Positions 1,987 through 17,772 of a DNA stretch of 17,772 nucleotides are shown here, in pieces (position 1 is the stretch's first letter; each line of letters opens with the position of its first letter). This DNA comes from Shewanella sp. 10N.286.48.A6 (lineage in GTDB: Bacteria; Pseudomonadota; Gammaproteobacteria; Enterobacterales; Shewanellaceae), in contig NZ_MCVI01000047.1 in assembly GCF_002873135.1 (NCBI RefSeq), positions 1 through 17,772 on the forward strand, read 5' to 3'. Both the position numbers and the translations under genes were made by a program. A model generated the notes under the pieces. That model was not told the DNA's origin, made no database searches, and saw nothing but the letters and a program-made list of their open reading frames with translations.

Positions 1987-2069
1987 ATGGCCGCTTTTCA
2001 TCGAGTATCACTGTGTATCTAGTAAACTTAACGCTCACTATTTGAAATAAAAAAGCCTCTTAAAAATTA

Positions 2070-2171
2070 TATATAGTAACTTTAAAGGGTGTATAATGTG
2101 TATTAAGGTAGAGAAATCTGCCTTTTTTTTGCATATTTAACATAACAGGTGTATAGTAAATGGTGTGTACG
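2070..2171 (+). repeat. Left end of the island with terminal inverted-repeat motifs
   Basis: Reading inward, this end holds TATATAGTA (2070-2078), AGTAAC (2075-2080), TGTATAATG (2090-2098), T8GCA (2123-2133) and AATGGTGTGTACG (2159-2171). All occur in inverted orientation at the right end: 16088-16096, 16022-16027, 15997-16005, 15977-15987 and 15988-16000. AGTAAC, TGTATAATG and T8GCA keep their order with similar spacing. These are plausible recombinase-binding sites. They also overlap the likely gmtY promoter. Confidence 0.6.
2129..2157 (+). promoter_or_regulatory. Candidate gmtY promoter inside the island end
   Basis: A TATAGT -10 (2152-2157) lies 17 bp after a weak TTGCAT -35 (2129-2134), about 37 nt before the gmtY start. 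A consensus TATAAT also occurs at 2092-2097 within the outer repeat motif and could be a second promoter. Both overlap or adjoin the inverted-repeat motifs, so recombinase binding could repress its own operon; that is inference. Confidence 0.4.
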
Positions 2172-2193
2172 ATATGTATAAGGAAAACATGGT

Positions 2194-3651
2194 TTGTCAT
2201 CAGTAAAAGTTAGAGCAACGATTGTAGAGGACAATACGGGCATCAAAAGCCAACTGCCTATCTTGCTAACTGAGCAAGGAGAGTTAAGTACGGTCACAGA
2301 CTACCTACTCAAGCTAGAGGCAGACGGTGTGAGTAACTCCGTCATGAATGGGTTTATTCAAGCGGTGTCCTTGTTGCTGGATTATATGGAAGCAAATAGA
2401 GGATTGTTTGACGATCCGAAGTTGCTCTTTCAGACCTTTTCTAAGCGGTTGTATACAGGAACGATTGGTGAGGATGGACTTGACCCATCAGGTTTGTATT
2501 GGGTGCCAAGTTCAACCAGTAACGTGAATAAGCATATTCATCGATTGACGGCATTTACAGATTGGTTGGCAAACAAGCACGGCACTGCGTCCATGAATCC
2601 CTTGCGTAATGCTACCCCGCATGAGCAGCGATTGAATTACGCTGCATGGTATCGCAAAAACCAAAACGATTTCCTTGGTCATATCGAAGATAAGACTGTG
2701 AACAAAACCATCCGTAAGGCGCGAACCATTAAAGGACGCACGCCGCTCACCAAAACCGAAGATGACGCCATCGCCTTTCCTGAAAAGCATTGGGAAGATT
2801 TTTATATAAATGGCATCGGTGGCGCGAGCGACCCACGAGTGGCACTCAGGGACAAGTTAATACTCCTTCTCATGCACGGTGGCGGGTTACGCGAAAGTGA
2901 AGCTTTAACGCTTTGGGTGACAGACGTGTTTGAAGATCCCTATGAGCCAGATAGTGCTATCGTTCGAATTTACAACGAAATAGATGGCAAAGCCCCTGAT
3001 GGTTGGCGAAGTCGTTCTGGTACACCAAACAGAGAAGCATATCTAAAGGAGCAATATGCTCGCATCCCTCGCCAGCGCATGAAAGGCACAGCTCATCTTG
3101 GTTGGAAGAACCGTGTGGTTGACCACAAAGACAATTACATACAGGTTCAATGGTTTCCAACTGACTATGGCAAAGTGTTTATGTCACTTTGGAAAAACTA
3201 CCAAAAGTACCGCGCCAGCATCGACTGTCATCACCCTTATGCGTTTATTTCGTTTCATCATAGCGCTATCGGCAACCCTTACACCATCAACGCCTTCCAT
3301 GATAACTACGCCAACGGCTTGAAGCGCATTGGTTTAGAGCCGAGCAAGGCAGAAGGCTTAGATCCACATGGGCATCGACATAATTACGGCAGACGATTAG
3401 AACGTTCAGGATTGAACCCGTTGGTAATTCGACGCTGTATGCACCATAAGTCCCTAGACTCACAAATCCCCTACACAGGCAAAGGCCAGCAGGAAATCTC
3501 TGACGAACTCACTCAAGCCACGCTGCAACTGGCAAACCCTGAATCCAAAGTCAAAGCACTCGACTGGAAAGCATTGGTAGAGCATGGTTTTGATGACATC
3601 GACCCGCAGGGCTACTTCACTGGCAAACATCCAAAATTGAGAGGTAAATAA
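2194..3651 (+). CDS. gmtY: Gamma-mobile-trio tyrosine recombinase GmtY
   Basis: Site-specific recombinase, 485 residues, first gene of the mobility operon. The C-terminal half carries tyrosine-recombinase signatures: R233 in GLRESE (Arg I), H392-x-x-R395 in the HGHRHNYG segment, and H418 with nucleophile Y427 nine residues later. The N-terminal 130 residues look like a helical core-binding domain. Initiation is on TTG (2194-2196), with AAGGA at about 2180-2184 as ribosome site. The ATG at 2189 is in another frame and stops after five codons. The stop codon overlaps the gmtZ start (TAATG). Identification as GmtY rests on size, motifs and the following two genes, all recognised from memory of the family. 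Confidence 0.85.
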   Translation: MSSVKVRATIVEDNTGIKSQLPILLTEQGELSTVTDYLLKLEADGVSNSVMNGFIQAVSLLLDYMEANRGLFDDPKLLFQTFSKRLYTGTIGEDGLDPSGLYWVPSSTSNVNKHIHRLTAFTDWLANKHGTASMNPLRNATPHEQRLNYAAWYRKNQNDFLGHIEDKTVNKTIRKARTIKGRTPLTKTEDDAIAFPEKHWEDFYINGIGGASDPRVALRDKLILLLMHGGGLRESEALTLWVTDVFEDPYEPDSAIVRIYNEIDGKAPDGWRSRSGTPNREAYLKEQYARIPRQRMKGTAHLGWKNRVVDHKDNYIQVQWFPTDYGKVFMSLWKNYQKYRASIDCHHPYAFISFHHSAIGNPYTINAFHDNYANGLKRIGLEPSKAEGLDPHGHRHNYGRRLERSGLNPLVIRRCMHHKSLDSQIPYTGKGQQEISDELTQATLQLANPESKVKALDWKALVEHGFDDIDPQGYFTGKHPKLRGK

Positions 3652-6335
3652 TGGCGAACAAAGGCAGAAAACTCGACGGACGCTCATCGGATTTAACTTT
3701 CTCATGGATGCTCACCACGCTTGGTGCGGAGTGGCAGCAATGGCAGGAGTTAGCAGCGGAGTGGATGGCAACTCAAACGACAGGTATTAACAATAAACAA
3801 AATGCTCTAAATCGTTTCTTTGAGTCCTATCTGGCTGAATATGCACCCTATGCCATCGGCGATATAGATTTGTTTTTTAAGGGCTACTGCGGTCATCAAT
3901 GCTCTAGCGAAGAGTTGAAGATTCTTGTAATGAAAACACAAAATGCCCCAGCTATCATCTCTAAAGGCGTGAATTTTCCTTGTGACTTTATCGACTTTGT
4001 TATTGAAAAAGTGTTCTCCGAGGAAGATGACCATGGCAACCTTGCTCCCTTAGTTCAAAACCCGCTCAGCAAAATCAAGAGCCAAGCCTCCACTACGGAA
4101 ACCGTGCGTAACCCCTTGCCGTATCGCTATATTCAGGACTTACGCCAAATACTCTGTCCGTTGCCCGACAAAACCGAACTGACCGTCATTGAGCAAAATC
4201 TCAAGGAAGGTGAACAACAACTTCCTGCTTACCACTACCGTCATTTCAAGCACTGGACATGGGCGCAGCAGCAAACAGGGCAAGGAGAAAGAGGTGGCGA
4301 TGGTGATTGGTTTGAAGTTGAGCCAGAACTGATTGATAAAGCCGATCCTGATTGTGTGTGGCGCACCAAAGAGGTGACTCGCCATATTAAAGGAGAGGGG
4401 AAGAAGAAAATCACCGTCCATCAAATCTGGTCGCCTGTCAAAGCGATGGTGATTTTAATAAAGCTCCATCTACCACTGCGTACCTATCAGGTGCGTATGC
4501 TGGACAGCGGTGAGGCTGATACATGGCGCTATGAGCAAGGTCAATGGGTGCTCAACACCAAACATGACTTTGCCCTTGGCAGCGAGAAGCGCCCGTTCGG
4601 GAAAGGCATCTTCCGCCGCATTCACGACACCATGACAGGGCTGTATTCCACAGGCTTGTATATCAACACCAACAAAACCGCTGACCAAAACAAAGACGAA
4701 CTAGAGCGTGGTTATATCATCCCTTGGCAAAACGAGGAAGTGCTGTACTGGCTTGAGAAACTGCGTAACTGGCAAGAAAAATATAACCCCATTGCAAAGC
4801 CCACCGATTGCACCACACTGCTTAATAAGCATATTGGAAAGAGCAAGTCGGATAAACAATTAGAAAGCATGGGGGAAATTGCGTTTCTGTTTCGTGATGC
4901 GTCAGCAAAAGGTGAGGATGAATCTAAACCAATTGCAGGTGACGCAAATATAGCGCCTTTCTGGTATCAACTCCTAATAACGCTAGAAAACCAACTGGCA
5001 GAACGTGGTAATACCCTAGATAACGGAGAACGGCTAAAACTGGTTGTGGATTACCCTGAAGGTACTCAAGAAGGTTCTAAAGTTGCCACACTTTTTCCTT
5101 TACACAGTTTGCGAGTCTCACTCATCACGGCGTATACGATGGACACGCAATTGCCACTGCCTGTGATTTCTAAGCTATTAGCTGGACATACACGCCTGTT
5201 GATGACCATCTACTACAACAAAATCACTCCATCGGTTATGGCTGAGAAGATGGACGAAGCGCATGGCGCACTGGATGCCAAATCCAAACAATCAGTGCGC
5301 AACTTCCTTAAAGATGCTTCGATGGAGCAAATCCAATGCAAGATGGTGTATCACAGTGATGATAGCATTCAGGCGGCATTGGTTAACCGTAATCCGATAG
5401 GCTGGGAAGAACGCTCGTGTGGGATGTGTCTGGTTGGTGGCAACACCGTGAAATCGGATGAAGTCAGTACCCTTGGTGGCTGCTGGAACGGTGGTGAGGT
5501 GATTAAAGATACAAAAATCGCTTACAACCGTGTTTACGACAGCGTAGCGCACGGCTCTGAAAACTGTATCCGCTGCCGCTGGTTTATTACCGAAGCACGC
5601 TACCTACCTGCGCTTAATGCCCACTTCAATCAACTGAGCTACAAAGCACATCAGGCCGCTAACCTATCGGTGGAAATTGAGGGTGAACTAGAAGCCCTCA
5701 AAGATGAACAGTTCTTTTGTGAAGAGCAAGGTAAGCCGTTCATCAAGCATGATGAACTGCAAGCACTACAGCGCCGCTATGAAAAACAGCAAGTCGAAGC
5801 CGATGAATACGCCAAAGATTGGATAGCGTGCTTTGAGCTTATCAACAAAATCATTCGCGTCGAAGAAGCCAGGAATGAGGATGACGCCAAAGATAAGCTG
5901 ATTGCGGTTGGCTCTGAACAAGATGTCAGCCATGCCTTGAAATTTATCGAAACCGACTCTGAATTGTTACACCTCTCCCTAATATGTGATGATGCGGAGT
6001 TCTATCCTGATTTACAGGATGAACTTCGTAAAACGCCTGCCATAGAAAAGCGCTCACGCAAGCTCAGTCGTGTACTGATGAAAAAAGGTTTTGAGCCAAT
6101 TTTCATGGAAATGGACGACAAGCAACAACTCATCGCCGCCAATGCCATGCTGCGCCAAATGGCGAAAATTGCCGACCCTGACGACAAGCTGGAAGGCTAC
6201 CGCAAGGTGGCGAGCTACATCGAAGCGGGTGAATACCTGACTGATAACAAGCTATTCTCTCAGGGTATTCAGGCACTGACTGATAAAGCAATTAATCTTG
6301 ATGGCATAGCACTACCGAACTTATTGGAGGACTAA
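3651..6335 (+). CDS. gmtZ: Gamma-mobile-trio integrase GmtZ
   Basis: Large recombinase-like protein of 894 residues. A degenerate tyrosine-recombinase core is visible: R277 (LRTYQVRML), H485-S-L-R488, H513 in AGHT, and Y522 nine residues later (Y521 is adjacent), so the catalytic set looks complete. A cysteine cluster follows: C590-x2-C593, C611 and C639-x2-C642, suggesting a bound zinc. Residues beyond about 675 are charged and helical. Its ATG overlaps the gmtY stop by one base, and its stop overlaps the gmtX ATG the same way, so translation is coupled. It probably acts with GmtY in moving the island; the division of labour is not visible from sequence. Confidence 0.85.
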   Translation: MANKGRKLDGRSSDLTFSWMLTTLGAEWQQWQELAAEWMATQTTGINNKQNALNRFFESYLAEYAPYAIGDIDLFFKGYCGHQCSSEELKILVMKTQNAPAIISKGVNFPCDFIDFVIEKVFSEEDDHGNLAPLVQNPLSKIKSQASTTETVRNPLPYRYIQDLRQILCPLPDKTELTVIEQNLKEGEQQLPAYHYRHFKHWTWAQQQTGQGERGGDGDWFEVEPELIDKADPDCVWRTKEVTRHIKGEGKKKITVHQIWSPVKAMVILIKLHLPLRTYQVRMLDSGEADTWRYEQGQWVLNTKHDFALGSEKRPFGKGIFRRIHDTMTGLYSTGLYINTNKTADQNKDELERGYIIPWQNEEVLYWLEKLRNWQEKYNPIAKPTDCTTLLNKHIGKSKSDKQLESMGEIAFLFRDASAKGEDESKPIAGDANIAPFWYQLLITLENQLAERGNTLDNGERLKLVVDYPEGTQEGSKVATLFPLHSLRVSLITAYTMDTQLPLPVISKLLAGHTRLLMTIYYNKITPSVMAEKMDEAHGALDAKSKQSVRNFLKDASMEQIQCKMVYHSDDSIQAALVNRNPIGWEERSCGMCLVGGNTVKSDEVSTLGGCWNGGEVIKDTKIAYNRVYDSVAHGSENCIRCRWFITEARYLPALNAHFNQLSYKAHQAANLSVEIEGELEALKDEQFFCEEQGKPFIKHDELQALQRRYEKQQVEADEYAKDWIACFELINKIIRVEEARNEDDAKDKLIAVGSEQDVSHALKFIETDSELLHLSLICDDAEFYPDLQDELRKTPAIEKRSRKLSRVLMKKGFEPIFMEMDDKQQLIAANAMLRQMAKIADPDDKLEGYRKVASYIEAGEYLTDNKLFSQGIQALTDKAINLDGIALPNLLED

Positions 6336-7012
6336 TGGAACTCGATATTGAAGTCATTCTGGCTGACTTAAAAGAAGGCAAAGTGCCTCGTACGCAGCAA
6401 AACCTCGATAAGCTCAACGAAACCCTGAAAGCCTATGCAGAATCAGGTCAGCGTGACTTCTCCATCACGCAAATTGGTCGGGTGTCTGCGGAAAATGGCG
6501 GATTGGCGTATGAGGCTTTTCGTGCTACCCGAAACACGCATTACCGCACCTTGATTGAAGCATGGGCGCAAAAGTGTAAAACCAACACTAAAAAGCCACT
6601 ATCACCTACATCACGCTCCAAATCTGTCCCACAAGACAACAAGTTGTTAGAGCGCATCCCTGACCCAGCCGTCCGCGCTTTGTTTGGTCAAATCATCGCA
6701 GAGCGCAACCGCTACCGCAAAGAAGTAAACCTGCTTAAGCAACACGCCAATATCACGATTGATAAGCGACCTGTCCGTCAGTTTGATGCCAGCGCAGAGC
6801 CAAGCATTGAAGTGCTCCCCTCACTTTCTGGTGTGCTTAATGAATCAGAAAAAAAGGCATTGGCTTATGCCATCTCCGATGAGTGTATGGACAAGAACGA
6901 CTGGCAAACAACGCAGGCAGGCCAAGTGAAAGACATGGAGTTCAACACAGAAATATTCCCCCGAGGCTTTGTGACTGGCCTGCGCAAGCTACTGGGTGAG
7001 GTTGATAACTAA
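6335..7012 (+). CDS. gmtX: Gamma-mobile-trio protein GmtX
   Basis: Third trio member, 225 residues, soluble. Residues 40-80 (FSITQIGRVSAENGG and following) look like a small helix-turn-helix fold. Residues 110-138 (AERNRYRKEVNLLKQ) could form a short coiled coil. No catalytic motif is seen, so an accessory or DNA-binding role is inferred. The start is preceded by GGAGG at about 6326-6330 inside gmtZ and overlaps the gmtZ stop by one base. Its N-terminal QQNLD (21-25) recurs in the next protein, with a shared 15-bp stretch of DNA. The name rests on operon position and size. Confidence 0.8.
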   Translation: MELDIEVILADLKEGKVPRTQQNLDKLNETLKAYAESGQRDFSITQIGRVSAENGGLAYEAFRATRNTHYRTLIEAWAQKCKTNTKKPLSPTSRSKSVPQDNKLLERIPDPAVRALFGQIIAERNRYRKEVNLLKQHANITIDKRPVRQFDASAEPSIEVLPSLSGVLNESEKKALAYAISDECMDKNDWQTTQAGQVKDMEFNTEIFPRGFVTGLRKLLGEVDN

Positions 7013-7449
7013 TGGCAAATGGGCAGCAAAAAGCACAGCAAAACCTCGATGCGTTTCAGGTGTGGGTGGCAACTCAACAGGATGATGACTTTAAACAAAT
7101 AGTGTTTAGAGGTCAGCTAAATCGTATTGAAGTGGCTAAAGCCGTAGGCTGTGGTAAATCAGCTCTAAATCAAAATCCTGATTTACGAAAATCATTAAAA
7201 CAACTAGAAGATAACCTGCGCGACAAAGGCGTGCTGCCACCACTGACCGACACCGCAAAAAAAGAAACTGATAAGCCTAAACAATACGATAATACGGCGA
7301 ATCGCAAGGCGCTTGATTCAAAACGCTTATCAGCACTGGAGGCTGAAAACATTGAATTAAAAACCAAAGTGAAAGAGCTTGAATGTAAACTTGAGCGCTT
7401 TGGTGAATTATCAGAAACCTTGTCAGAAATGGGGTTCATGCCTCGATGA
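7012..7449 (+). CDS. Small coiled-coil protein, probably VPA1267 family, fourth gene of the GMT operon
   Basis: A 145-residue protein of unknown function. Residues 30-55 (FRGQLNRIEVAKAVGCGKS and following) resemble a helix-turn-helix, followed by DLRKSLKQLEDNLRDKGVLPP. A Lys- and Asp-rich linker at 80-100 leads to a heptad-like coiled coil at about 104-138. QQNLD at 9-13 matches GmtX 21-25. Its ATG overlaps the gmtX stop and its TGA overlaps the helicase start (ATGA), so it is made together with both. The layout resembles the small genes next to the trio in the Vibrio parahaemolyticus VPA1267-VPA1270 region, as I recall it. A DNA-binding adaptor is possible but unproven. Confidence 0.7.
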   Translation: MANGQQKAQQNLDAFQVWVATQQDDDFKQIVFRGQLNRIEVAKAVGCGKSALNQNPDLRKSLKQLEDNLRDKGVLPPLTDTAKKETDKPKQYDNTANRKALDSKRLSALEAENIELKTKVKELECKLERFGELSETLSEMGFMPR

Positions 7450-9599
7450 ATGCTACCTTACACGAAGACCAATTGCGCGTCACCAGTATCCCCTACACCT
7501 CATCAAAGATGGTGATATTCAGCGGTACACCGCTAAAGAAAAACTCATACAGAGCCAACAGTGGTAAATACTACGTCACGATAAAGGTAGATCCTGACAC
7601 ATTGCCTGCACAACCAGCTATCGGTCAGTATTGGTCAGTCAAAGGAAGTCGACAAGTCGAAAGCATGGACATAGGCGATTACGTTATGCAGCAGCATACC
7701 TTTGAGTCACCTGAGTATGTTGAATGCAGTTTGCCAGAAACAGGCGAACAACTGATCCGATTCATCGCTAGGGAAGCTGCCTTTAAAGGTATTGGTGAAA
7801 GCAAAGCAAGGGCGCTCTGGGAGCTTTTAGGTAAGAATTTTCATGCAACCTTGAGAAAAGATACGCCAGAGTCAAGAGAGCGGCTTAGAAGTGTTCTGAG
7901 CGAAGATTCCATTATCTCATTGTTTGAGGGATATTCTAAATACAAGAATCTAGCCTACTGCAATTGGATGTCTGAACACAAGATACCTGCCAGTGTTCAG
8001 CAGCGTTTGCTGAAGTATCACACTGAGAAATCCATTGAAGCAATTAAACATAATCCTTATGCGCTAATTGGTTTCGGCATGAGTTTTACAGAGGTGGATT
8101 CTATTTCTCAAGCGAAGCTTGAGGCCACAACAAATGATGACAGACGATTGAGTGCAGCGCTTGAAATAGCGATACGCAAAGAGATTGAGAAAGGCCATAC
8201 CTACACGATACAAGCTGATTTACGCACTTATTTAACCAAGTTACTCAAGGACAAAGAACTTGTCGCCAAAGCCTTTAAAGCAGGACATGACAAAGCTCAG
8301 TATTTATTAAATCACACAACAGGCACATACCATCCAACGGCTCAGTTATTGATGGAGAATGTCGTTGCTAAACGACTCAATGCGCTTGCCAGTCAAAACA
8401 ACTTGTATGACGAGTATGCAGATTCTGCATATTGCTCTGCGGTTGGTGAATTACCTTATGAGCTAACAAAGAAACAAATAGAAGCTGTCACTACATGCTT
8501 GGATAACGCCGTAAGTTGCATTACAGGTGGTGCTGGAACAGGCAAAACGACAGTGCTTAGAACTGCATTGCGTGCCTATCATATAATGGGGTTTGAAATA
8601 CATGCTGTAGCCTTAAGTGGTCGTGCGGCCATGCGCTTGCATGAGTCAATTGGTTTTATCACTTCAACGATTGCAAAGTTACTGCGAAATGAACCTATTG
8701 ATTCAGATAAACAAAAACATCTGCTCGTTATTGATGAAGCCAGCATGATTGATTTGCCGACCATGTACCGCCTGGTCAACCATATTCATCCATCGGTTCG
8801 TATTATCTTTACAGGTGACCCCGACCAGTTACCGCCTATAGGTTGCGGCAAGGTACTTGCCGATATCGTTCTGTCTAAAGCCATTGCTAACACCATGCTA
8901 GATATCGTTAAGCGTCAGGAAGGTTCAACAGGCATTCCCGAATACTCCAAGCTCATTAATCAAGGCATCGTACCTGAGAAACTAAGTACGGGCGCTATTC
9001 ACTTCCACGAAACGACAAAGAGCGACATTGCTCAAGTCTGTTGTGACTTGTATCAGCAATCACCTGAAAACAGTCGTGTTATGGCACCGACCAAAGCGCT
9101 CGTTGCTGACATTAATAAACTAACACAAGAAGCCGTCAACCATAATGGAAATAGACTTGAGTTCGAAATGCACGGTGAGAGATTCATTCAAAACCTCAGA
9201 TTGAATGATGCGATTCTATTTACGCAAAACCATTACGACAAAGGCATTCAAAACGGCTCTCTTGGTACACTAACCAGTGTTGAGTCTTCGGGTGAAAGCT
9301 ATGGTGAAGTAACGCTGGATACGGGGGATAAAGTTGAGGTCACACAATCAGTACTCGATTGCATGGAATTGGGTTATGCAATAACCCTCCATAAAGCACA
9401 AGGTTCTCAGTTCCCACGCATTATCATTGCTTTGCAGAAAGGTAGAATCGTTGACAGAGCATGGCTTTATACCGCTATCACTAGAGCTGAGCATGAAATT
9501 CACATTGTTGGGGCAGAAGATGATTTTAAAGCCATTACTGAGGCACCAAGTCATTCACATCGGCGTAATAGCTATCTTGTTGAGCTTTTAAAAAGATAA
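7446..9599 (+). CDS. RecD-like superfamily 1 DNA helicase
   Basis: ATP-dependent helicase of 717 residues, RecD/RecD2-like. Visible motifs: Walker A GGAGTGKT (361-368), Walker B DEAS (430-433), motif III GDPDQLPP (457-464), motif V HKAQGSQ (649-655) and motif VI TAITRA (676-681). The N-terminal third includes FKGIGESKARALWELL, which resembles the helix-hairpin-helix region of RecD2 proteins. Family members move 5' to 3' on single-stranded DNA. The start overlaps the preceding stop in ATGA, so it is the last cistron of the coupled mobility operon. A role in processing island DNA during transfer or integration is inferred from that position; replication or repair support is the alternative. Confidence 0.9.
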   Translation: MNATLHEDQLRVTSIPYTSSKMVIFSGTPLKKNSYRANSGKYYVTIKVDPDTLPAQPAIGQYWSVKGSRQVESMDIGDYVMQQHTFESPEYVECSLPETGEQLIRFIAREAAFKGIGESKARALWELLGKNFHATLRKDTPESRERLRSVLSEDSIISLFEGYSKYKNLAYCNWMSEHKIPASVQQRLLKYHTEKSIEAIKHNPYALIGFGMSFTEVDSISQAKLEATTNDDRRLSAALEIAIRKEIEKGHTYTIQADLRTYLTKLLKDKELVAKAFKAGHDKAQYLLNHTTGTYHPTAQLLMENVVAKRLNALASQNNLYDEYADSAYCSAVGELPYELTKKQIEAVTTCLDNAVSCITGGAGTGKTTVLRTALRAYHIMGFEIHAVALSGRAAMRLHESIGFITSTIAKLLRNEPIDSDKQKHLLVIDEASMIDLPTMYRLVNHIHPSVRIIFTGDPDQLPPIGCGKVLADIVLSKAIANTMLDIVKRQEGSTGIPEYSKLINQGIVPEKLSTGAIHFHETTKSDIAQVCCDLYQQSPENSRVMAPTKALVADINKLTQEAVNHNGNRLEFEMHGERFIQNLRLNDAILFTQNHYDKGIQNGSLGTLTSVESSGESYGEVTLDTGDKVEVTQSVLDCMELGYAITLHKAQGSQFPRIIIALQKGRIVDRAWLYTAITRAEHEIHIVGAEDDFKAITEAPSHSHRRNSYLVELLKR

Positions 9600-10054
9600 A
9601 AATAAAATTTGTTACTTTGGGGAGTGACTACGGGTACAAGCGGAGATAAGCTGTGTGTTAACGCGAAGCGTTATCCACATCTTATTCTGCGTTCTTGCGT
9701 AGCAAGATGTGCCTGTAGTTGAGCGACCATCAAAAAGCCCGTTGGTGTTCACAATAATTGCGTACTCATTTGCAACACACTTCTGGACAGAAATCATTTA
9801 GAGTACTCTGTCTACGTCGACTAATATTGATTAGAAAAAGTATCCGAAATTATCAAAGATCTATAATTAGTTTCACCCTCTTTATCTACAAAACGAGCGG
9901 TGAACGGTAGCCGAAGAGTACAGGGCAAGATCACGAAGCTTTACCTTGTGCTAAGTTTTTTATCTTATACTTCTTTTTGATAACAAACCAAGTCAACCAT
10001 GTCTAAGCTCAATTTATTCAAGTACTTTGTAGCCTTCATTGCATTTTGACCTTA
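9600..10054. other. Non-coding junction between GMT core and cargo
   Basis: 455 bp without a convincing gene between convergent genes. It holds TTGTTACTTT at 9609-9618, identical to the right island end (16020-16029), then two inverted repeats (9659-9673 and 9676-9711). Beyond 9720 nothing is recognised; a 16-codon frame at 9999-10049 is too short to call. No clear intrinsic terminator for the helicase gene was found. Confidence 0.6.
9659..9711. repeat. Two adjacent inverted repeats (hairpins)
   Basis: TAACGC and GCGTTA flank GAA at 9659-9673 (perfect 6-bp arms). Immediately after, CACATCTT (9676-9683) pairs perfectly with AAGATGTG (9704-9711), with further partial pairing in the 20-nt interior. 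No T tract follows, so these do not look like simple terminators. They could be a structured RNA, a protein-binding site or a remnant of an earlier insertion. Confidence 0.55.
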
Positions 10055-10495
10055 TTACTCTTTATTAAAAACGACGTATGTTCCCTCAAAAGTAGCAACC
10101 AATTCATCCGCACAAAATAGATTGCAGGCTATTTTAACACGACCTTTTCCCTTGCGTTGAAACGCACGATGAAACCGAGGCCACGCCGTAAGGTTGTCAT
10201 ATTTACATACTGCTGTTACATCTTTTCTGGCGGGTTTTAGGTATCGAATGCTATTTTCTTGAATAACAATTTGATGTTTTTTACCCTCTAACTGGGCATA
10301 AACTAAAGACCAACCTGCCAAAATACCAACAACAGATAAGCTGCCGCCAAACACCGTATTCATGTGGTTTGTATTCACTCTCAATGGTGCAGTAATCTCG
10401 ATATTTTTGCTGCTACAAGTATTCACACCGATACCGAGAGACTTTGATACTGGTATATGATGATGAAGGTAGACTTCAAGCTCTCTATTTTTCAT
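10055..10495 (-). CDS. Hot-dog fold thioesterase, YiiD C-terminal domain type
   Basis: Putative acyl-CoA or acyl thioesterase of 146 residues. The segment NTNHMNTVFGGSLSVVG at about residues 41-56 matches the thioesterase-like domain found at the C-terminus of E. coli YiiD and in stand-alone homologues. The rest fits a single hot-dog domain with alternating hydrophobic strands. ATG 10493-10495 is chosen because homology-like sequence begins there. An in-frame TTG at 10532-10534 would add 13 residues but has no ribosome site; the ATG site is weak too. It is the last gene of the likely SDR-EthD-DsbA-thioesterase operon, 65 bp after the dsbA-like gene. The substrate is unknown. Confidence 0.75.
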   Translation of the reverse strand: MKNRELEVYLHHHIPVSKSLGIGVNTCSSKNIEITAPLRVNTNHMNTVFGGSLSVVGILAGWSLVYAQLEGKKHQIVIQENSIRYLKPARKDVTAVCKYDNLTAWPRFHRAFQRKGKGRVKIACNLFCADELVATFEGTYVVFNKE

Positions 10496-10560
10496 ATAGA
10501 CCGTTGCCTTTTTCAGACCGCCAAAATATTGCAAAAGTCCGTTTTAGAGGGATGCAGGAA

Positions 10561-11205
10561 TTACATTTTAGCTAATTCAGTTAATACTTGCTTATACGTA
10601 TCCACTGATTGGGCTCCAGAAATAGCGCTCTCGCGATTGAATACAACTGTTGGAACACTTGATATACCCGCTTGTTTCCATTTCTGTTCCAGCGACTGGA
10701 CATGACTTCGCATATTATCGTCATCTAGGCATTGCATTGCTTCGTCAACATTAATACCAAGACTTTGCAACTCTTGCTCGAGGGTACTCTTGCTGGATAT
10801 ATCTTTTTGCTCGCTATAAAACGAAGCAAATAATCGATTTTTAAGCTCGGTTTGCTTGCCTACACTTTTTGCGTGCTCTAGAAGAATATGAGCATCAAGG
10901 GTATTTACAGCTTTTAGTCGGTCAAAGTAGTCGAATTTAAACCCAACGTCTTCTCCAAGCTCTGTCATCTCTTTTCTGAAAAGAATGCTATCTTCCAATG
11001 TAGTACCATACTTCCTCTGAAGGTGGGCACGTAGGTCTTCACCTTCAAGTGGCATATCTGGATTTAACTGAAAAGGTTGCCACTCAATCTCAATGCGATC
11101 TTCCATACCAAGCTCTTTTATCGCGGTATCTAAACGCTTATAACCGATAATACACCAAGGACAAACCACATCTGACACTATATCCAATTTGATTTTCTTA
11201 TTCAT
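10561..11205 (-). CDS. DsbA family oxidoreductase, FrnE-like
   Basis: Thioredoxin-fold oxidoreductase of 214 residues. The redox motif CPWC is at 15-18 and the cis-proline loop SVPTVVFN has P185; the long helical insertion between them is typical of the DsbA/FrnE (2-hydroxychromene-2-carboxylate isomerase-like) group. There is no signal peptide, so it is cytoplasmic, unlike classical DsbA. FrnE homologues have been linked to oxidative-stress tolerance and to polyketide biosynthesis. GAG precedes the ATG by about 7 nt. It lies 119 bp after the EthD gene on the same strand, and the neighbouring peroxiredoxin and AhpD-like genes support a thiol-redox role. Confidence 0.88.
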   Translation of the reverse strand: MNKKIKLDIVSDVVCPWCIIGYKRLDTAIKELGMEDRIEIEWQPFQLNPDMPLEGEDLRAHLQRKYGTTLEDSILFRKEMTELGEDVGFKFDYFDRLKAVNTLDAHILLEHAKSVGKQTELKNRLFASFYSEQKDISSKSTLEQELQSLGINVDEAMQCLDDDNMRSHVQSLEQKWKQAGISSVPTVVFNRESAISGAQSVDTYKQVLTELAKM

Positions 11206-11324
11206 ATTTAACTCTTTTTATCAATCGTTTAGCTTCAATTTTATTTCATTAAATAACACTAAGCAGAACCCAAATTGTTTATTATTCGGTATCCTGCTCA
11301 TTTTCAACGTAGAGAGTTGCGGTT

Positions 11325-11636
11325 CTATATTTTTTGCTCACAAAGCTGAATTGTTGGAACGGTATTAGTGAAGTTCGGTACATCAGCTTTTATCTTCTCT
11401 GCATTTGGGCCAAATGCCGTTTGAAATGACTCTATAGATTCAAATGAAATTGTACTAATCGCCACATATGCCGCTGCTTCACCAGGAACAACACTTGTTA
11501 GCCCTGCATCTACTGTCGCCCCTTTTAGTGCGTCTCCCAGAAGCTCTCCTATCATAGGAACATGTTTGTTGCAGTAGTAATCAAAATCAAAAATCACATC
11601 ATCGTTATTTGGGTATATTACGTATACTTTAATCAT
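11325..11636 (-). CDS. EthD domain-containing protein
   Basis: A 103-residue protein with the EthD dimeric alpha/beta-barrel pattern: an N-terminal strand MIKVYVIYP, then FDFDYYCNKHVPMIGELLG with the family-typical H25-V-P, and a C-terminal strand. Members occur beside oxidoreductases in degradation and detoxification clusters; a few are enzymes, most are uncharacterised. AGGG upstream supports the ATG. It lies 53 bp downstream of the SDR gene, likely cotranscribed. Confidence 0.82.
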   Translation of the reverse strand: MIKVYVIYPNNDDVIFDFDYYCNKHVPMIGELLGDALKGATVDAGLTSVVPGEAAAYVAISTISFESIESFQTAFGPNAEKIKADVPNFTNTVPTIQLCEQKI

Positions 11637-11689
11637 TGCTTTTTCCCTTTTTCCCTTTTTCTTTCACTAAAGTTTTAAACTGTTGGGGG

Positions 11690-12490
11690 TTACATTTTGT
11701 TCTTGGGCATTGCTTTTCCAATCATTGATTCACCCATTATTGCCTGCTTTTGGTGGGAGATGATCCCAGAAAGAATAGCGGTCATTCGATTACGTTTACC
11801 TGGAACCACAACTGCTTTTTTACCTAAACCGTTGATAGCAATTTCGGCTACTTCCGCAGGATCTTTTGCAACCATTGGCAATTTAGACCAGTCAATACCA
11901 TTGTCCGCAGTCATCGGTGTGCTAGTTAGCCCCGGAGAAAGAACGGTTACATCAATACCCTTGGGTTTAAGCTCGCCATGAAGAGAAGCACCTAGTTGTA
12001 GAACATAGGCTTTGGTACCTGCATAATTTGAAAAATATGGAGAAACCATATGACCAGAAAGGCTTGATACCATTAGAATGCCGCCGCGTTTTCTTTCCAC
12101 CATCGCTGGTGTAAAGTGGTGGGTAAGTTGTAATACAGAGGTAACATTAAGCTGCACCATCTGTAATTCTTTAGCTAACGATGTCTTAGCAAATGAACCA
12201 TTTATTTCAACACCTGCTGCGAGTACCAACAAACCTATTTCTTGCTTCACCTGCTTAACTTTTTCAACCCCTTCAGTAGTAGCTAAATCTGCTGAAACAA
12301 TCATTGTTTTAATTCCATAACGATCCGCAAGCAATGCTGCGTGCTCTTCAAGTTCTTTTTCTCGACGAGCAACCAAAACAATATTCAATCCTTTTGCTGC
12401 AATTTGACTCGCCATTTCAGCACCGATGCCAGACGTTGCACCAGTGATAAGAGCCCAATCACCATACTTTTCTTTAAAGCTGATACCCAT
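11690..12490 (-). CDS. Short-chain dehydrogenase/reductase (SDR)
   Basis: NAD(P)-dependent oxidoreductase of 266 residues, classical SDR. The cofactor-binding motif TGATSGIG is at 16-23, AAG (91-93) stands for the usual NAG, N115 is conserved, and the catalytic set is S143, Y156 and K160 (YAGTK). R42 and R43 after the second strand suggest preference for NADP(H). It heads a probable operon with the EthD, DsbA-like and thioesterase genes. Its upstream gap holds repeated GCTCA/GAGC elements that could bind the AraC-type regulator encoded just upstream. The substrate, probably a carbonyl or alcohol compound, is unknown. Confidence 0.92.
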   Translation of the reverse strand: MGISFKEKYGDWALITGATSGIGAEMASQIAAKGLNIVLVARREKELEEHAALLADRYGIKTMIVSADLATTEGVEKVKQVKQEIGLLVLAAGVEINGSFAKTSLAKELQMVQLNVTSVLQLTHHFTPAMVERKRGGILMVSSLSGHMVSPYFSNYAGTKAYVLQLGASLHGELKPKGIDVTVLSPGLTSTPMTADNGIDWSKLPMVAKDPAEVAEIAINGLGKKAVVVPGKRNRMTAILSGIISHQKQAIMGESMIGKAMPKNKM

Positions 12491-12576
12491 AATTCGTTAC
12501 CTTTATCTGTGTTTAATTGATGGAGTAATTATATGGAAATCAGAGAAGGTAGGCTCTTCAGAAAAGTTCAAATATT

Positions 12577-12599
12577 GCTCAGATTAGCTCAAACGAGCC
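12577..12599 (-). promoter_or_regulatory. Candidate operator upstream of the SDR operon
   Basis: Read on the minus strand, two direct TGAGC elements lie 10 bp apart (plus-strand GCTCA at 12577-12581 and 12587-12591), preceded by an inverted GGCTC (plus-strand GAGCC at 12595-12599). Direct half-sites about one helical turn apart suit an AraC-family protein, and an araC-type gene lies immediately upstream. The link is inferred. Confidence 0.35.
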
Positions 12600-12633
12600 A
12601 ATCAGAATCTGAATAGAAGGAATAAGTGTGGTG

Positions 12634-13455
12634 TCAGGCTAAACGAAATTCAGAGGGAGAAAGACCAGTTTGTCCTTTGAAGGTACGGTTAAAGGTGGAA
12701 ACCGATTCGAAACCTGTTTCAAAAACGATGTCAGAGATACGTAAGTTATTATCTTTCAGTAACACCTTAGCTTTGTTGATTTTTAATTTGGTAATGTATT
12801 TCATTGGTGGTTCTGAATATACCTCTTTAAACTTACGTTTAAAGGTAGAAACACTCATATGACACAATGCCGCTAACTCATTCACACTCAGATCCGCATA
12901 CAGATTACTTTGGATAATATCTTCAAATTTGGCAAAATTAGGTTTAAACATGGAAGCAAGAAAATCGACTTCGGACGGAGCATTGGTTCTTTTCGACATA
13001 AGAATGACAAATTCACGTAGCTTACTCTCGATAAGCAAATCATCCGCCAACTCTGGAGAGTCTAGCAATATGCTAATGCTGTCGCGATAGTGCTCAAGCA
13101 ATCTATCCACTTCAACCTGCATAATATTATAATCAACCCTGTAGTTTGACTGGCTAATATCAAAGTTAAACAGTGACTGAAATATTTCAGGGTAAAGAAA
13201 GATGCCAATCGCTTCACCTACACCTTCATCATTAGGGTAGTTGGTATTTTCATAAAAGTAGTTGGTGCATTTTGCTAACACTCCGCAGTTTTTGTTCAAT
13301 GAAACAGATTCTGTCTGCTCCCTGACGCTAAAATCGCCATTAGTAACAAACGCAAAACACGCTTCGCTATCAACAAATACACGTGGCATACGTTTGAAAC
13401 TGGGTATATCTTGTTTTTTTAAAACAACACGTCCGTTATATTTGATTGTTTTCAT
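12634..13455 (-). CDS. AraC family transcriptional regulator
   Basis: A 273-residue regulator. The N-terminal 160 residues form a possible effector-binding cupin-like domain. The C-terminal domain has the two AraC helix-turn-helix units, at about 189-210 (LSVNELAALCHMSVSTFKRK) and 239-260 (RISDIVFETGFESVSTFNRT), ending with the family signature GLSPSEFR at 264-271. It is complete. The ribosome site is weak. It lies 143 bp upstream of, and in the same direction as, the SDR gene and probably activates that operon. The 165 bp between it and the tetR-type gene presumably hold its promoter; only a weak 5-bp-arm inverted repeat (13533-13548) is seen there. Confidence 0.9.
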   Translation of the reverse strand: MKTIKYNGRVVLKKQDIPSFKRMPRVFVDSEACFAFVTNGDFSVREQTESVSLNKNCGVLAKCTNYFYENTNYPNDEGVGEAIGIFLYPEIFQSLFNFDISQSNYRVDYNIMQVEVDRLLEHYRDSISILLDSPELADDLLIESKLREFVILMSKRTNAPSEVDFLASMFKPNFAKFEDIIQSNLYADLSVNELAALCHMSVSTFKRKFKEVYSEPPMKYITKLKINKAKVLLKDNNLRISDIVFETGFESVSTFNRTFKGQTGLSPSEFRLA

Positions 13456-13620
13456 TTAAAGGCACCATTCAATAGTATTGCGATAAGGATAAAGCAGACT
13501 ACCTGCTCGATTAACTAATTGACTCAACTAGAACCGTGTTGCTACGGTGCTGCACTCATAATCATTAGACATCTAAAACTCGACAACAAAGCTAAAGCTC
13601 GAGAATAGTCTACGCATAAT

Positions 13621-14214
13621 CTATTTTTCAAATGTACTCAATACAAGCATGAATGCATGTATAGATCGAGCGAGAGATTCATGTGGTCTTTGCCCTCTTG
13701 ATTGAACTTTGAGTCCTTGACGAAACGTAAGGAAATAGTCGGTTAAATGCTCTGCATCTATACCATCAATAAGTCGTTCTGTTTTCTCATATTGAGTAAA
13801 AAATGCCAGTGTTGCAATACGACCTTGTTCAAACTTCCTAATAACATACTCATAGAGGGCTGGTTCGTTTGATTTTAATTCAACAATACTGTTTGTAATT
13901 AAGCAGCCGTAAGTGAGTAGATCATTCTCTGGGTTTAAGAACTCACTATCAAATAAATATTGAAGATTCTCTGATATTGATTTATCCGAGTCGAGTTTCC
14001 TGAGTACCACAGACATGTGATGCTCAACATAGAAATCTACTATACATTTAAACACGGTTTCTTTGTTGCCAAACGCGTTGTAAATACTGGTTTTCGTTAA
14101 TCCTGTAACGGTCGATAATTTATCCATTTTAGTCGACGCATAACCATGCTGCCAAAAATATTTGGCCATAACTCCAAGCACTTCAATCTCGTCAAACTGT
14201 CTTTTCTTTGCCAT
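13621..14214 (-). CDS. TetR/AcrR family transcriptional repressor
   Basis: A 197-residue regulator. The DNA-binding helix-turn-helix is at about 28-47, with the typical GLTKTSIYNAFGNKE at 38-52. The remaining helices form a divergent ligand-binding and dimerisation domain. It is transcribed divergently from the peroxiredoxin-like gene, 109 bp away. That gap has two 16-bp palindromes covering promoters in both directions, so repression of itself and of the peroxiredoxin-AhpD pair is the natural reading. No clear ribosome site precedes the ATG. The inducing ligand cannot be told from sequence; C109 and other cysteines leave a redox signal possible. Confidence 0.92.
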   Translation of the reverse strand: MAKKRQFDEIEVLGVMAKYFWQHGYASTKMDKLSTVTGLTKTSIYNAFGNKETVFKCIVDFYVEHHMSVVLRKLDSDKSISENLQYLFDSEFLNPENDLLTYGCLITNSIVELKSNEPALYEYVIRKFEQGRIATLAFFTQYEKTERLIDGIDAEHLTDYFLTFRQGLKVQSRGQRPHESLARSIHAFMLVLSTFEK

Positions 14215-14242
14215 TTATCTATACAACTACATAAAATTCTTA

Positions 14243-14271
14243 TTGACACCTATTGTACTAGTTAGTACATT
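14243..14271 (+). promoter_or_regulatory. Promoter of the peroxiredoxin-like operon
   Basis: A perfect -35 TTGACA (14243-14248) is separated by 17 bp from a -10-like TACATT (14266-14271), about 53 nt before the gene start. Operator 1 overlaps the spacer and the -10. Confidence 0.65.
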
Positions 14272-14279
14272 AATTGCAA
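14252..14279 (-). promoter_or_regulatory. Divergent promoter of the tetR-type gene
   Basis: On the minus strand, TTGCAA (14279-14274) and TACAAT (14257-14252) are 16 bp apart, about 38 nt before the regulator's ATG. The -10 overlaps operator 1, consistent with autorepression. Confidence 0.5.
14254..14269. promoter_or_regulatory. TetR operator 1 (palindrome)
   Basis: TGTACTA and TAGTACA are perfect 7-bp inverted arms around GT. The site covers the spacer and -10 of the plus-strand promoter and touches the -10 of the minus-strand promoter. Confidence 0.7.
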
Positions 14280-14280
14280 A

Positions 14281-14296
14281 TGTACTAACTGGTACA
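14281..14296. promoter_or_regulatory. TetR operator 2 (palindrome, one mismatch)
   Basis: TGTACTA and TGGTACA flank AC; it is the reverse complement of operator 1 except for one base. It lies 27 bp downstream, between the plus-strand -10 and the ribosome site, so binding would block early transcription. Confidence 0.68.
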
Positions 14297-14323
14297 ATTA
14301 AACAAAACAATGAGGAACAAACG

Positions 14324-15142
14324 ATGTTTTCAGCTATAGCACTATCACTACTTGGATTTGCCTCAACGGTGATTGGAAGTTTGCATTACTTTCTAAAAGT
14401 AAAAAAGAACAAGCCTCCCAAAAATCCTATCATCCTTATGCTAGCACTTGCGGCAGGTGTCCTTTTGGGGCTAGGTGCAATTATCAGTGGGATTATAAAT
14501 ATGCATTGGAGCTTTGTTTTCGTTGTCTTAATGTCCAGCTTTTCCATATTTCTTGGTGGTAAATTCATTTGGGTATTCAGTCAAAAAGATACTCCTCTAG
14601 GTGATATTAAAGTTGTAATTGGAGATAAGTTCCCACAATTCGAATCAACCACATATGACAACGAGATTTATTCGACTGATGACCTAAAAAATCAACGTGT
14701 TCTACTTAAGTTTTACCGAGGTGCTTGGTGTCCATATTGTAGTGCTGAATTAAAAATGTTTAACGATATGAAACCGACCCTAGATCGATATGGCGTTAAT
14801 GTCGTTGCGTTGTCGGGAGATACGGCAGAACAAGCAAAAATGCACATCGAACGAGATAGTTTAGATCTTCTTCTTTTGTCAGACCCAGAACTCAAAGTAG
14901 TTAAACTATACGGCGTTGAACACCACAAGGCTTTAGGGGCTGACTCGTCTAAAACAAAAACAATATTAGGGCTGCCATTTCCTACTTCATTTGAATACAA
15001 ATCAATGTCTATCCCAACATCGATCTTAATTGATGAACATGGTGTCATCCAATGGATAGATCAATCTGAAGACTATCGACTAAGAGCAAGCGAAGAACGA
15101 TTAACTCAAGCCTTACGTAACGCTTTCACCATTAATAAATAA
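14324..15142 (+). CDS. Membrane-anchored peroxiredoxin-like (AhpC/TSA) protein
   Basis: A 272-residue fusion of an N-terminal membrane region and a thioredoxin-fold domain. Hydrophobic segments at about 3-22, 35-58 and 63-84 suggest three transmembrane helices. The domain from about 92 on has GDKFPQF, then FYRGAWCPYC with C136 and C139, and a cis-proline loop SIPTSILID. The C-P-Y-C pair resembles the peroxiredoxin-like (PRX_like) group rather than 2-Cys AhpC. The frame is open further upstream, but ATG 14324-14326 is chosen because GAGGAA (14312-14317) precedes it and promoter and operators lie before it. The AhpD-like gene follows 18 bp later, so peroxide or disulfide reduction with that partner is likely. 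With three helices and a 6-residue N-terminus the thiol domain probably faces the periplasm if the N-terminus is inside, but topology is not certain. Confidence 0.87.
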   Translation: MFSAIALSLLGFASTVIGSLHYFLKVKKNKPPKNPIILMLALAAGVLLGLGAIISGIINMHWSFVFVVLMSSFSIFLGGKFIWVFSQKDTPLGDIKVVIGDKFPQFESTTYDNEIYSTDDLKNQRVLLKFYRGAWCPYCSAELKMFNDMKPTLDRYGVNVVALSGDTAEQAKMHIERDSLDLLLLSDPELKVVKLYGVEHHKALGADSSKTKTILGLPFPTSFEYKSMSIPTSILIDEHGVIQWIDQSEDYRLRASEERLTQALRNAFTINK

Positions 15143-15160
15143 TAAACCGAGAGAATTATT

Positions 15161-15718
15161 ATGTTTAACTACCACAATATTGAAACAGCACCAGAAGCTT
15201 CAAAGCAAATGATGGAGCAATCTAAAAAATCACTTGGTTTAATTCCAAATTTACATAAAGTGCTAGCAGATGCTCCCGCAACTTATCAAGCTTATTTGAA
15301 GACTTATGAGTTATTCACGCAAAGTACACTATTCAGTCCACTCGAAGCTCAAGTGGTTCTGATGACCTCAAACTTTGAAAACAACTGTCACTATTGCGTT
15401 CCTGGTCATACGTGGATCATGAAATCAGCTAATATGCCAGAAAGCATTATTGAAGCACTACGGGAAGGAAATGAGTTACCTGATGTCAAACTACAAGCGT
15501 TGCATGTCTTTACTAAAGAGCTACTAGATAATCGTGGTCATATAGGTGATGAAAAGTTGCAGAACTTTCTAACGGTAGGATACACTGAGCGGCATGCACT
15601 TGAAGTGTTGACAGGCTTAGCTTGCAAACTCATTTCAAATTTCACCAATGCATTATCTCATACACCAGTTGATGCCCCATTAAAGGCTTTTGACTGGACT
15701 CACCCTTCAGAGAGGTAA
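15161..15718 (+). CDS. Carboxymuconolactone decarboxylase family protein, AhpD-like
   Basis: A 185-residue all-helical protein with the AhpD-type active site E73-N-N-C76-H-Y-C79-V-P-G-H83 (CxxC followed by His after three residues). AhpD proteins use this pair in alkylhydroperoxide reduction and can hand electrons to a peroxiredoxin. GAGAG lies about 7 nt before the ATG, and the gene is 18 bp after the peroxiredoxin-like gene, so the two form one operon under the TetR operators, closed by the terminator just downstream. No decarboxylase role is implied by the family name. Confidence 0.92.
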   Translation: MFNYHNIETAPEASKQMMEQSKKSLGLIPNLHKVLADAPATYQAYLKTYELFTQSTLFSPLEAQVVLMTSNFENNCHYCVPGHTWIMKSANMPESIIEALREGNELPDVKLQALHVFTKELLDNRGHIGDEKLQNFLTVGYTERHALEVLTGLACKLISNFTNALSHTPVDAPLKAFDWTHPSER

Positions 15719-15728
15719 GATCAATCTG

Positions 15729-15756
15729 AAGAGAGTATCTACTGATACTCTCTTTT
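15729..15756 (+). terminator. Intrinsic terminator of the peroxiredoxin-AhpD operon
   Basis: GAGAGTATC (15731-15739) pairs perfectly with GATACTCTC (15744-15752) around TACT. Two flanking A-T pairs extend it to 11 bp, and TTTT runs to 15756. It begins 10 bp after the AhpD-like stop codon. Confidence 0.88.
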
Positions 15757-15976
15757 AATGGCCGTGTATTTTCATAAGTATATGTGTTGTGGATTAGTAA
15801 ATTTGGCCACATAGTCAGAACTCTAGGCATAAAGAAAAGTAAGTCAAATTACGAATCTTTAGTATAGCCTCATTCCTGCTCTAGCTTGTTATGGGGCAAA
15901 AGTTAGCTAGAGGTTTTGCTTTATCAGGTAGTGTAAACTCCTACCAAGATGGAGCGCACGACAACCGACATTGCGT

Positions 15977-16027
15977 TGCAAAAAAAACGTACACACCATT
16001 ATACATAGTGTGTACGTCATTGTTACT
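15977..16027 (-). repeat. Right end of the island: palindrome and terminal inverted-repeat motifs
   Basis: A perfect 10-bp inverted repeat, ACGTACACAC (15987-15996) and GTGTGTACGT (16008-16017), flanks an 11-bp centre. Read inward from the right end, the strand shows AGTAAC (16027-16022), TGTATAATG (16005-15997), AATGGTGTGTACG (16000-15988) and T8GCA (15987-15977), all shared with the left end. The palindrome resembles paired recombinase-binding arms. Confidence 0.65.
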
Positions 16028-16098
16028 TTAGCTAGCCCTTGTCGTATATAGCTATTCACTCACTCACACGAGAATAAACATACTTTCTACTATATACT

Positions 16099-16115
16099 CC
16101 TCATGGAGGCTTTTT
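16099..16115. other. Half of the presumed ancestral pstS terminator
   Basis: CCTC-ATG-GAGGCTTTTT. The left-hand partner AAAAAAGCCTC lies at 2049-2059 beyond the other island end. Joined at CCTC the two give 10-bp perfect arms (AAAAAGCCTC / GAGGCTTTTT) with loop ATG and T tracts both ways. As it stands only a 4-bp stem remains here, so pstS may now lack an efficient terminator. Confidence 0.5.
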
Positions 16116-17371: not shown

Positions 17372-17653
17372 TTAGGCTTTGTTGCAATAAAGACCAGCAA
17401 ATAGTTTACAGACGCATCCGCAAGACCTTATAAAACCCGCTTCATGTAAGTTATTTGATACTGACCATTTTAAAGAAGCATTATTGTGGCTTAAAGAATC
17501 GGTTATTATGAACAATTCAAAGTCGTGATACCTAGTCCGCACCCAAATTGTACTGTTGATGCCTTTTTGGTATTTCCAAACTCCGTTTGGATTAACGTCG
17601 TGGGTTTTCCACCCACACCCAACCAAAAGGGTATCAACAGCATTACCCTCCAT
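17372..17653 (-). CDS. Doubtful small hypothetical protein
   Basis: A 93-residue frame, not recognised. It contains WVRTRYHDFELFIITDS and a Cys-rich tail (CGCVCKLFAGLYC). The start is preceded only by AAAGAG. Its stop codon lies in an inverted repeat, CCTAAC-AA-GTTAGG (17363-17376), and a GTTAGGG lies 5' of its start (minus strand, about 17686-17692). It may be a real small gene, a relic or chance. If it is not real, 17206-17772 holds no gene. Confidence 0.3.
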   Translation of the reverse strand: MEGNAVDTLLVGCGWKTHDVNPNGVWKYQKGINSTIWVRTRYHDFELFIITDSLSHNNASLKWSVSNNLHEAGFIRSCGCVCKLFAGLYCNKA

Positions 17654-17772
17654 ACTCTTTATTAATGAATTAGGCCCCGCCGCCCCTAACGAAAAATGCT
17701 GAAAAGCGCATGATTTTCGATGGGGATTTATCCAGCTTTTAACTTCGTTTGTTGCTAACTTCGGCCCCTGTT

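Follow-up and report, generated by a model that had tools for sequence, protein, structure and literature searches.

A Gamma-Mobile-Trio island of Shewanella from a lineage that appears to move by a 6-bp rule, mostly into stem-loops of unrelated sequence

Genes and boundaries of the island

The window, which is the whole stretch of 17,772 nucleotides analysed here, is contig 47 of the 4.65-Mb genome of Shewanella sp. 10N.286.48.A6. It contains a Gamma-Mobile-Trio (GMT) island, a type of element reportedly first described by Mahata et al. 2024. The genes gmtY (2194..3651), gmtZ (3651..6335) and gmtX (6335..7012) are consecutive on the plus strand and encode a tyrosine recombinase, a large integrase and GmtX, all above the NCBIfam cut-offs (NF040693, 563.6 bits, cut-off 340; NF047926, 1056 bits, cut-off 600; NF040692, 251 bits, cut-off 40). 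They are followed on the same strand by genes for a VPA1267-family protein (7012..7449; NCBIfam NF040697, over the cut-off) and a RecD2-like helicase (7446..9599), the latter assigned from Pfam and from TIGR01448, where its 365 bits lie under the cut-off of 500. Because the VPA1267-family protein is missing from all three copies of the IncHI2-type island described below, those of the plasmid, E. coli and Leclercia, the gmtYZX trio alone may suffice.

GmtY retains R233, H392, R395, H418 and Y427 in an alignment of 17, which we take to be the catalytic residues of a tyrosine recombinase. An HSLR...GH...Y series was read by eye in GmtZ. The GmtY profile matched Xer/Int recombinases among the PDB sequences, with one row labelled otherwise, and GmtZ alone had no match to the PDB by sequence up to an E-value of 1. 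GmtX has no Pfam match, and its predicted model is mainly helical (mean pLDDT 80.3, pTM 0.42). The cargo at 10055-15718 looks metabolic or redox-related and regulatory by Pfam analysis of the 16 window proteins; it comprises a thioesterase, DsbA-like and EthD proteins, a short-chain dehydrogenase, AraC and TetR regulators, and an AhpC/TSA protein. The neighboring genes, for an M1 aminopeptidase on the left and a phosphate-binding protein (pstS-like) on the right, are both on the minus strand. A composition profile and a tRNA scan of the window found nothing.

The limits of the island were fixed by an uninterrupted relative, genome G087, which is the best match in the genus to the right flank of the window (95%) and in which both flanks are joined. 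Host DNA of G087 matches the window to position 2066 and resumes at 16106, with a single A between the matches. Since the flank matches end and restart at these positions, the island spans 2067..16099 (14,033 bp, plus strand), in an end register common to 27 islands. A short sequence near 17562-17603, in the region 17562-17746 of the window, has two occurrences in the matching flank of G087.

In G087, the empty site is one unbroken hairpin, AAAAAAGCCTC TTAAAAAA GAGGCTTT, which forms a 10-pair stem on folding and looks like an intrinsic terminator 3' of the pstS-like gene. In the window, this putative terminator is split into two arms on the plus strand. The left arm (2049..2060), composed of an A-tract (2049-2054) and the stem half GCCTCT (2055-2060), is continuous in G087 with the right arm (16106..16115), which begins where the host match restarts and is composed of GAGGC and a T-tract. 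The left arm is followed by the left 6-bp core TAAAAA (2061..2066, plus strand), the former host loop; the host match stops at its last base, and its register was taken from the other islands. The right 6-bp core CTCATG (16100..16105, plus strand) is missing from the empty site and thus foreign to it, and was probably derived from a previous donor site. The window island therefore appears to occupy the loop of a host transcription-terminator hairpin. In all four empty sites compared (G087, E. coli E2865, plasmid pTZ41_1P and G054), the flanks join at the cut, and the comparison of occupied with empty sites defines the island, at the level of sequence, as a mobile unit with definite ends. A search for a Vibrio empty site of locus L069 gave matches to the flank query in 57 of 196 genomes; apart from the genome of L069 itself, the best had 73% identity.

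Related islands and the sequences at their ends

An alignment of GmtY was scanned against one genome per species from 84,980 species and identified 76 loci, in 28 of which GmtY is at least 77% identical. The hosts of these 28 loci include Shewanella, Vibrio, Photobacterium, Rheinheimera, Pseudidiomarina, Paraglaciecola, Leclercia and others. In this gmtY lineage, most islands start with TTATATA and finish with TATACTC; nearly all left ends have TTATATA or a near variant, preceded by an A-tract and a GC-rich arm that varies by locus. The right-end sequence was found in 18 of the 19 genomes searched (E-value up to 4e-4), one more locus being unsearchable. The match in the nineteenth genome, that of Leclercia, was a chance match, and the true right end was found with Leclercia's own sequence. 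Searches within the locus gave no convincing right end for L063, L072, L089-L092, L096 and L127. The right ends of L090, L091 and L099 were found after downstream DNA had been added, and none was found for Stutzerimonas L089 even with this addition.

The resulting 27 pairs of left and right ends comprise 21 of the 28 loci, the window, and five E. coli or plasmid copies (L167, L168, L169, L173 and L174). Loci L063, L072 and L087 were dropped for having no paired right end, and L073, L080, L082 and L088 for having no usable outer flank. GmtY is present in 143 plasmid records, five of which were examined; pEC732 was dropped because it has no left end, and the IncHI2A plasmid L172 was left out because the search string is absent from it. 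Several shorter or more distant sequences were also found. Positions 1809-1866 of L055 (G036:C15) hold a 58-bp gene-free element in a terminator-hairpin loop. It combines 11 bp of the left terminus with about 46 bp from the right end and is either an internal deletion or a MITE-like derivative. An exact-pattern search for a family of such miniature elements had no hits in 394 genomes of the order, a list that does not include G036. A right end near position 1666 of L056 (G025), in a genome with no gmtY match at E-values up to 1e-30, is probably a remnant. GmtY-like proteins with 36-38% identity occur in Bacillota records (L113-L118 and L130).

The original prediction was that motifs shared in inverted orientation mark both ends of a gmtY/gmtZ/gmtX island, and they do so with limits no more than 3 bp from the true ends at 2067 and 16099. 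The letters, coordinates and inverted orientation of the five motif pairs are all correct. The likeness of the two ends exceeds chance: the 125 bp inward from each true end share 11 distinct inverted 9-mers, compared to a mean of 0.31 in 1000 dinucleotide-preserving shuffles. None of the 1000 shuffles reached 11, and one had a shared inverted word of at least 13. The spacing of the motifs is unequal between the left and right ends of the window. Related islands without such ends were named as grounds for abandoning the idea; the same kind of ends was found in the 27 islands, so that the idea largely withstood this comparison.

The left terminal repeat TTATATATAGTAA (2067..2079, plus strand) and the right terminal repeat (16087..16099, minus strand; GAGTATATAGTAG when read inward) are conserved over the 27 left and 27 right ends. 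The proposal that the shared motifs are binding arms finds partial support in TATATAGTA, which is kept beside the crossover at both ends and occurs with at most one mismatch in 24 left and 23 right ends of the 27 related islands. Among the noted motifs, TATATAGTA alone is a terminal repeat, and most of the others are unlike recombinase arms. It is very unlikely that the full motif set serves as GmtY/GmtZ binding arms, even though the motifs are common to both window ends beyond chance and a TGTATAATG-like sequence is retained in most ends (at most one mismatch in 25 left and 21 right ends of the 27). The right-hand AGTAAC is kept exactly in just one of the 27 islands, exact T8GCA in one of 27 on each side, and AATGGTGTGTACG, with at most two mismatches, in 24 right ends but only three left ones. 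The T8GCA sequences, rather than being recombinase arms, provide the T-tracts of inward-facing terminator-like hairpins. The complete set was rejected as recombinase arms on its conservation over the 27 islands, save for the terminal repeat; TGTATAATG / GTGTGTACG is a possible candidate protein site.

A scan of the window identified one terminator-like hairpin per end, both facing inward. The left hairpin (2105..2130, plus strand) contains the noted T8. The right one (15980..16018, minus strand) contains the second T8 and the predicted palindrome, which is indeed present as part of a 14-pair hairpin (G-T allowed) that is followed by a T-tract (16018-15986, minus strand). All 27 left ends and 26 of the 27 right ends have an inward hairpin at about the same position, compared to 6-8% of 600 interior segments. 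As the loop of the right-hand hairpin is also fairly conserved, this hairpin may possibly double as a protein site. Every insertion would break a host terminator, and the island's inward terminators at both ends would block host transcripts. The breakage of the host terminator would be the reason why the island carries a terminator at each end, and such inward terminators would fit an element that disrupts terminators.

Stem-loops at the insertion sites

A perfect stem of at least 7 bp is present at the cut in 24 of the 27 reconstructed sites, whose sequences differ. The mean stem is 9.96 bp long, compared to 3.25 bp in mismatched flank pairs (0 of 20,000 permutations; 27 sites), in a sample where nine of the 27 pairs combine ends from different contigs and three of these nine were picked partly by the match itself. 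With same-contig ends only, 15 of 19 sites have a stem of at least 7 bp, and the mean is 9.3 against 3.26 bp (0 of 20,000 permutations); in this test L064 was paired with the right end on its own contig, which does not match. An earlier 21-pair version that scored shared runs gave 10.5 against 5.4 (0 of 20,000). The exceptions are pMAO6 with a stem of 2 bp, pL289 with three perfect pairs and a longer stem if a mismatch is allowed, L071 with a stem of 5 bp, and L064 with 4 bp when paired with its own-contig right end. In Vibrio sp. Isolate32 (L064, L139 and L156), the own-contig right end does not match the L064 left flank and one from another contig does; the mismatch probably reflects recombination between islands or an assembly join.

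Most of the compared related islands thus appear to occupy other hairpins of different sequence, which suggests that the enzymes choose DNA shape over a fixed sequence. A fixed-sequence attB was rejected, since stem sequences vary across sites. In L064, L075, L079 and L086, the right core is the reverse complement of the left one; palindromes account for two of these four loci, and the right end of L064 is on another contig. It looks as though the element had gone back into its own symmetric site in the opposite direction.

Among more distant GmtY lineages, two Halomonas islands (GmtY 62-64% identical) and one of Pseudomonas borbori (51%) have matching flanking arms of 10-13 bp. In two species of Psychrobacter (GmtY 55%), a CRISPR repeat is interrupted by the island, and the loop GCATAG stands on either side of it, as read from left and right junctions that lie on different contigs (position 9851 in both L095 and L097, with the right junctions in L201 and L202). 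Clades with GmtY of about 31-33% identity instead occupy recurrent sites that look gene-borne; judged by eye, we take these sites to be greB and a radical-SAM gene.

When the flanks of 26 sites are aligned at the cut (the base-frequency table omits L168), the six core positions are little conserved, with G at the last position in 65% and 54%. Beyond the core lie about six GC-rich positions with no fixed base (top frequency 0.73), and beyond these A occurs at 65-92% over five positions. The recombinases might instead recognize a loose symmetric consensus in ordinary double-stranded DNA, with an A-tract and about six GC-rich bp before a 6-bp core and six GC-rich bp and a T-tract after it, so that terminators would be merely good genomic matches. 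The A-tracts at a fixed distance on both sides of the cut agree with this explanation, which we nevertheless regard as rather unlikely. In 1.7 Mb of locus DNA, 4540 distinct places match in composition and just 113 of them have a stem of at least 7 bp, compared to 22 of the 22 targets that follow the composition rule, and both the L077 site and the Psychrobacter CRISPR repeats are stem-loops without A/T-tracts. The same comparison disfavours composition alone, and it favours pairing, more than composition, as the property that would be recognized at the targets. With the loop fixed at exactly 6 nt, all six inner pairs form in 14 of 22 targets and in 78 of 9369 positions; because the fixed loop accounts for only 14 of the 22, the target loop length presumably varies somewhat.

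Two further explanations were weighed. The island could enter many palindromes or places, with only the harmless insertions into terminators surviving. The intergenic location of terminators and the terminator-like hairpins that come with the island would suit such survival, but nearly all sites have the cut at the loop in one and the same register, for which tolerance alone is insufficient, and we find the explanation highly improbable. Alternatively, the machinery could follow a transcription complex paused at a terminator. Although most targets resemble intrinsic terminators, the sister lineage uses CRISPR repeats and the L077 stem-loop has no T-tract, which leaves this alternative barely plausible. 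We favor targets that are selected mainly by their paired arms.

Probable movement by a 6-bp rule and relation to known elements

An island of the IncHI2A plasmid pIMP-20710 is 98.5% identical over 11.2 kb to one in the chromosome of E. coli O111:H8 TW05614, where it is inserted between ygcG and eno. The cargo of this E. coli/IncHI2 island at L167 20838-23634 encodes DUF6527, ThiF-family and multiubiquitin-domain proteins, which might form a ubiquitin-like defence system. The empty sites are hairpins in both replicons: ATGCCAGC CCGGAG GCTGGCAT in E. coli E2865, and GGCCAGC AAGTAT GCTGGC in plasmid pTZ41_1P. The plasmid copy has the cores AAGTAT on the left and ACAAAG on the right. In the E. 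coli copy, the left core is CCGGAG, which is the host loop, and the right core is AAGTAT. A chromosomal copy in Leclercia has TATTAT on the left and AAGTAT on the right; the same Leclercia strain also carries the island on a plasmid. In both chromosomes, the right 6 bp thus equal the left core of the plasmid copy. The right junction of Shewanella ANA-3 holds exactly 6 extra bp, with no host base lost. The 6 bp 5' of the left end are therefore former host DNA and the 6 bp 3' of the right end are foreign, a fingerprint rule based on two jumps of one element (one family of copies) and on the one 6-bp footprint of ANA-3.

A search for further plasmid-to-chromosome jumps found the right-end pattern in one of 392 genomes, the already known Leclercia. 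A query of the left end plus 30 bp of flank had matches in 33 plasmid records, in 31 of them over its full length. One of the two partial matches is without the first 14 bases, and the other starts at the first base of its record, with the flank outside the record.

We consider it likely that the element is a terminator-loop GMT island, whose circle with a 6-bp core would insert into new stem-loops chosen mainly by their paired arms. GmtY and GmtZ, aided by GmtX, would join the two ends by a 6-bp crossover, and the resulting circle would retain the left 6 bp only. It would then enter another stem-loop at the loop, in the manner described for the strand-biased circularizing integrative elements (SE). 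Paired arms, usually with A/T-tracts outside and without a fixed sequence, would mark the target, and we infer that GmtY and GmtZ read a folded hairpin. A more specific form of this proposal is shape-reading integration, in which a loop of about 6 nt on a stem of about 7-13 bp can serve as a target irrespective of sequence, the recombinases probably work on a single strand or an extruded hairpin, and the end terminators repair the regulatory damage. We find it plausible, though somewhat short of probable.

Integron attC recombination also employs a tyrosine recombinase on a hairpin of poorly conserved sequence, with a single integrase that moves gene cassettes. GMT elements differ in that whole islands move and in that the folding of their targets is inferred. 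Group IIC introns similarly target rho-independent terminator stem-loops or attC sites, but are described, in the part of the source used here, as RNA-based retroelements that insert beside the stem (PMC7923331), whereas the GMT island has tyrosine recombinases and lies in the loop. A group IIC intron was rejected for the window, as the 16 window proteins scanned with Pfam include no reverse transcriptase.

In its passages on SE, PMC10214605 describes imperfect terminal repeats with a 6-bp spacer, which GMT islands also have, and the transfer of the donor's left 6 bp to the right end of the new copy, as seen in the E. coli and Leclercia copies relative to the IncHI2 copy. According to the same passages, no empty donor site is left after circle formation, the core genes are intA, tfp, intB and srap, and the described targets are selected sites and not terminators; in the last two respects SE appear to differ from GMT islands. 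Comparison of GMT proteins with those of the pAQU1 SE by blastp and hhalign gave no similarity, in an insensitive search that also missed GmtY against IntA, both of which belong to PF00589. The 6-bp rule of SE is also seen in Tn554, which resembles GMT islands in having one ordinary and one large tyrosine recombinase, a small protein and a 6-bp footprint, and differs in its Staphylococcus and Enterococcus hosts; its target site specificity is stated, and terminators are unmentioned in those excerpts (PMC10214605).

GInt elements share with GMT islands the location of several recombinases at the left end of the island and proposed 6-nt staggered cuts. As far as the consulted portion of PMC5385486 describes them, they differ in having ginABCD with three integrases, site-specific integration and flanking direct imperfect repeats; the window has two recombinase genes plus gmtX. 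A RIT element consists of three consecutive tyrosine recombinases of 315-410 aa in the excerpted text of PMC10214605. It was rejected for the window, where two recombinases of 485 and 894 aa precede GmtX. The island thus appears to move like SE and Tn554 elements but to target hairpins.

GMT islands are described, in the sections of PMC12039261 drawn on here, as mobile armories of antibacterial toxins and antiphage defence, and a single isolate is mentioned there in which two identical islands occupy different places. The present analysis adds to this description the base-level ends, the 6-bp rule and the stem-loop targets. Terminator targets are reported in no title or abstract from full-text searches on terminator-targeting elements and on GMT islands; within a set of papers that does not include the original GMT paper, this is weak evidence of novelty.

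The lineage is best described as GMT islands that appear to move by the 6-bp rule of SE and Tn554 and whose putative targets are mostly stem-loops of unrelated sequence. With exact ends, each GMT island can be delimited to the base, and the 6-bp fingerprint reveals, from sequence alone, the source site of a copy, here from an IncHI2 plasmid to two chromosomes. If shape-reading integration is true, intrinsic terminators, and CRISPR repeats in the sister lineage, would be genome-wide landing sites. Landing in terminators would account for the arrival of a single lineage of a tyrosine-recombinase element at many places with little cost. Such an element would also offer an integrase steered by shape, not sequence, and makes it testable how such an enzyme tolerates non-identical cores.
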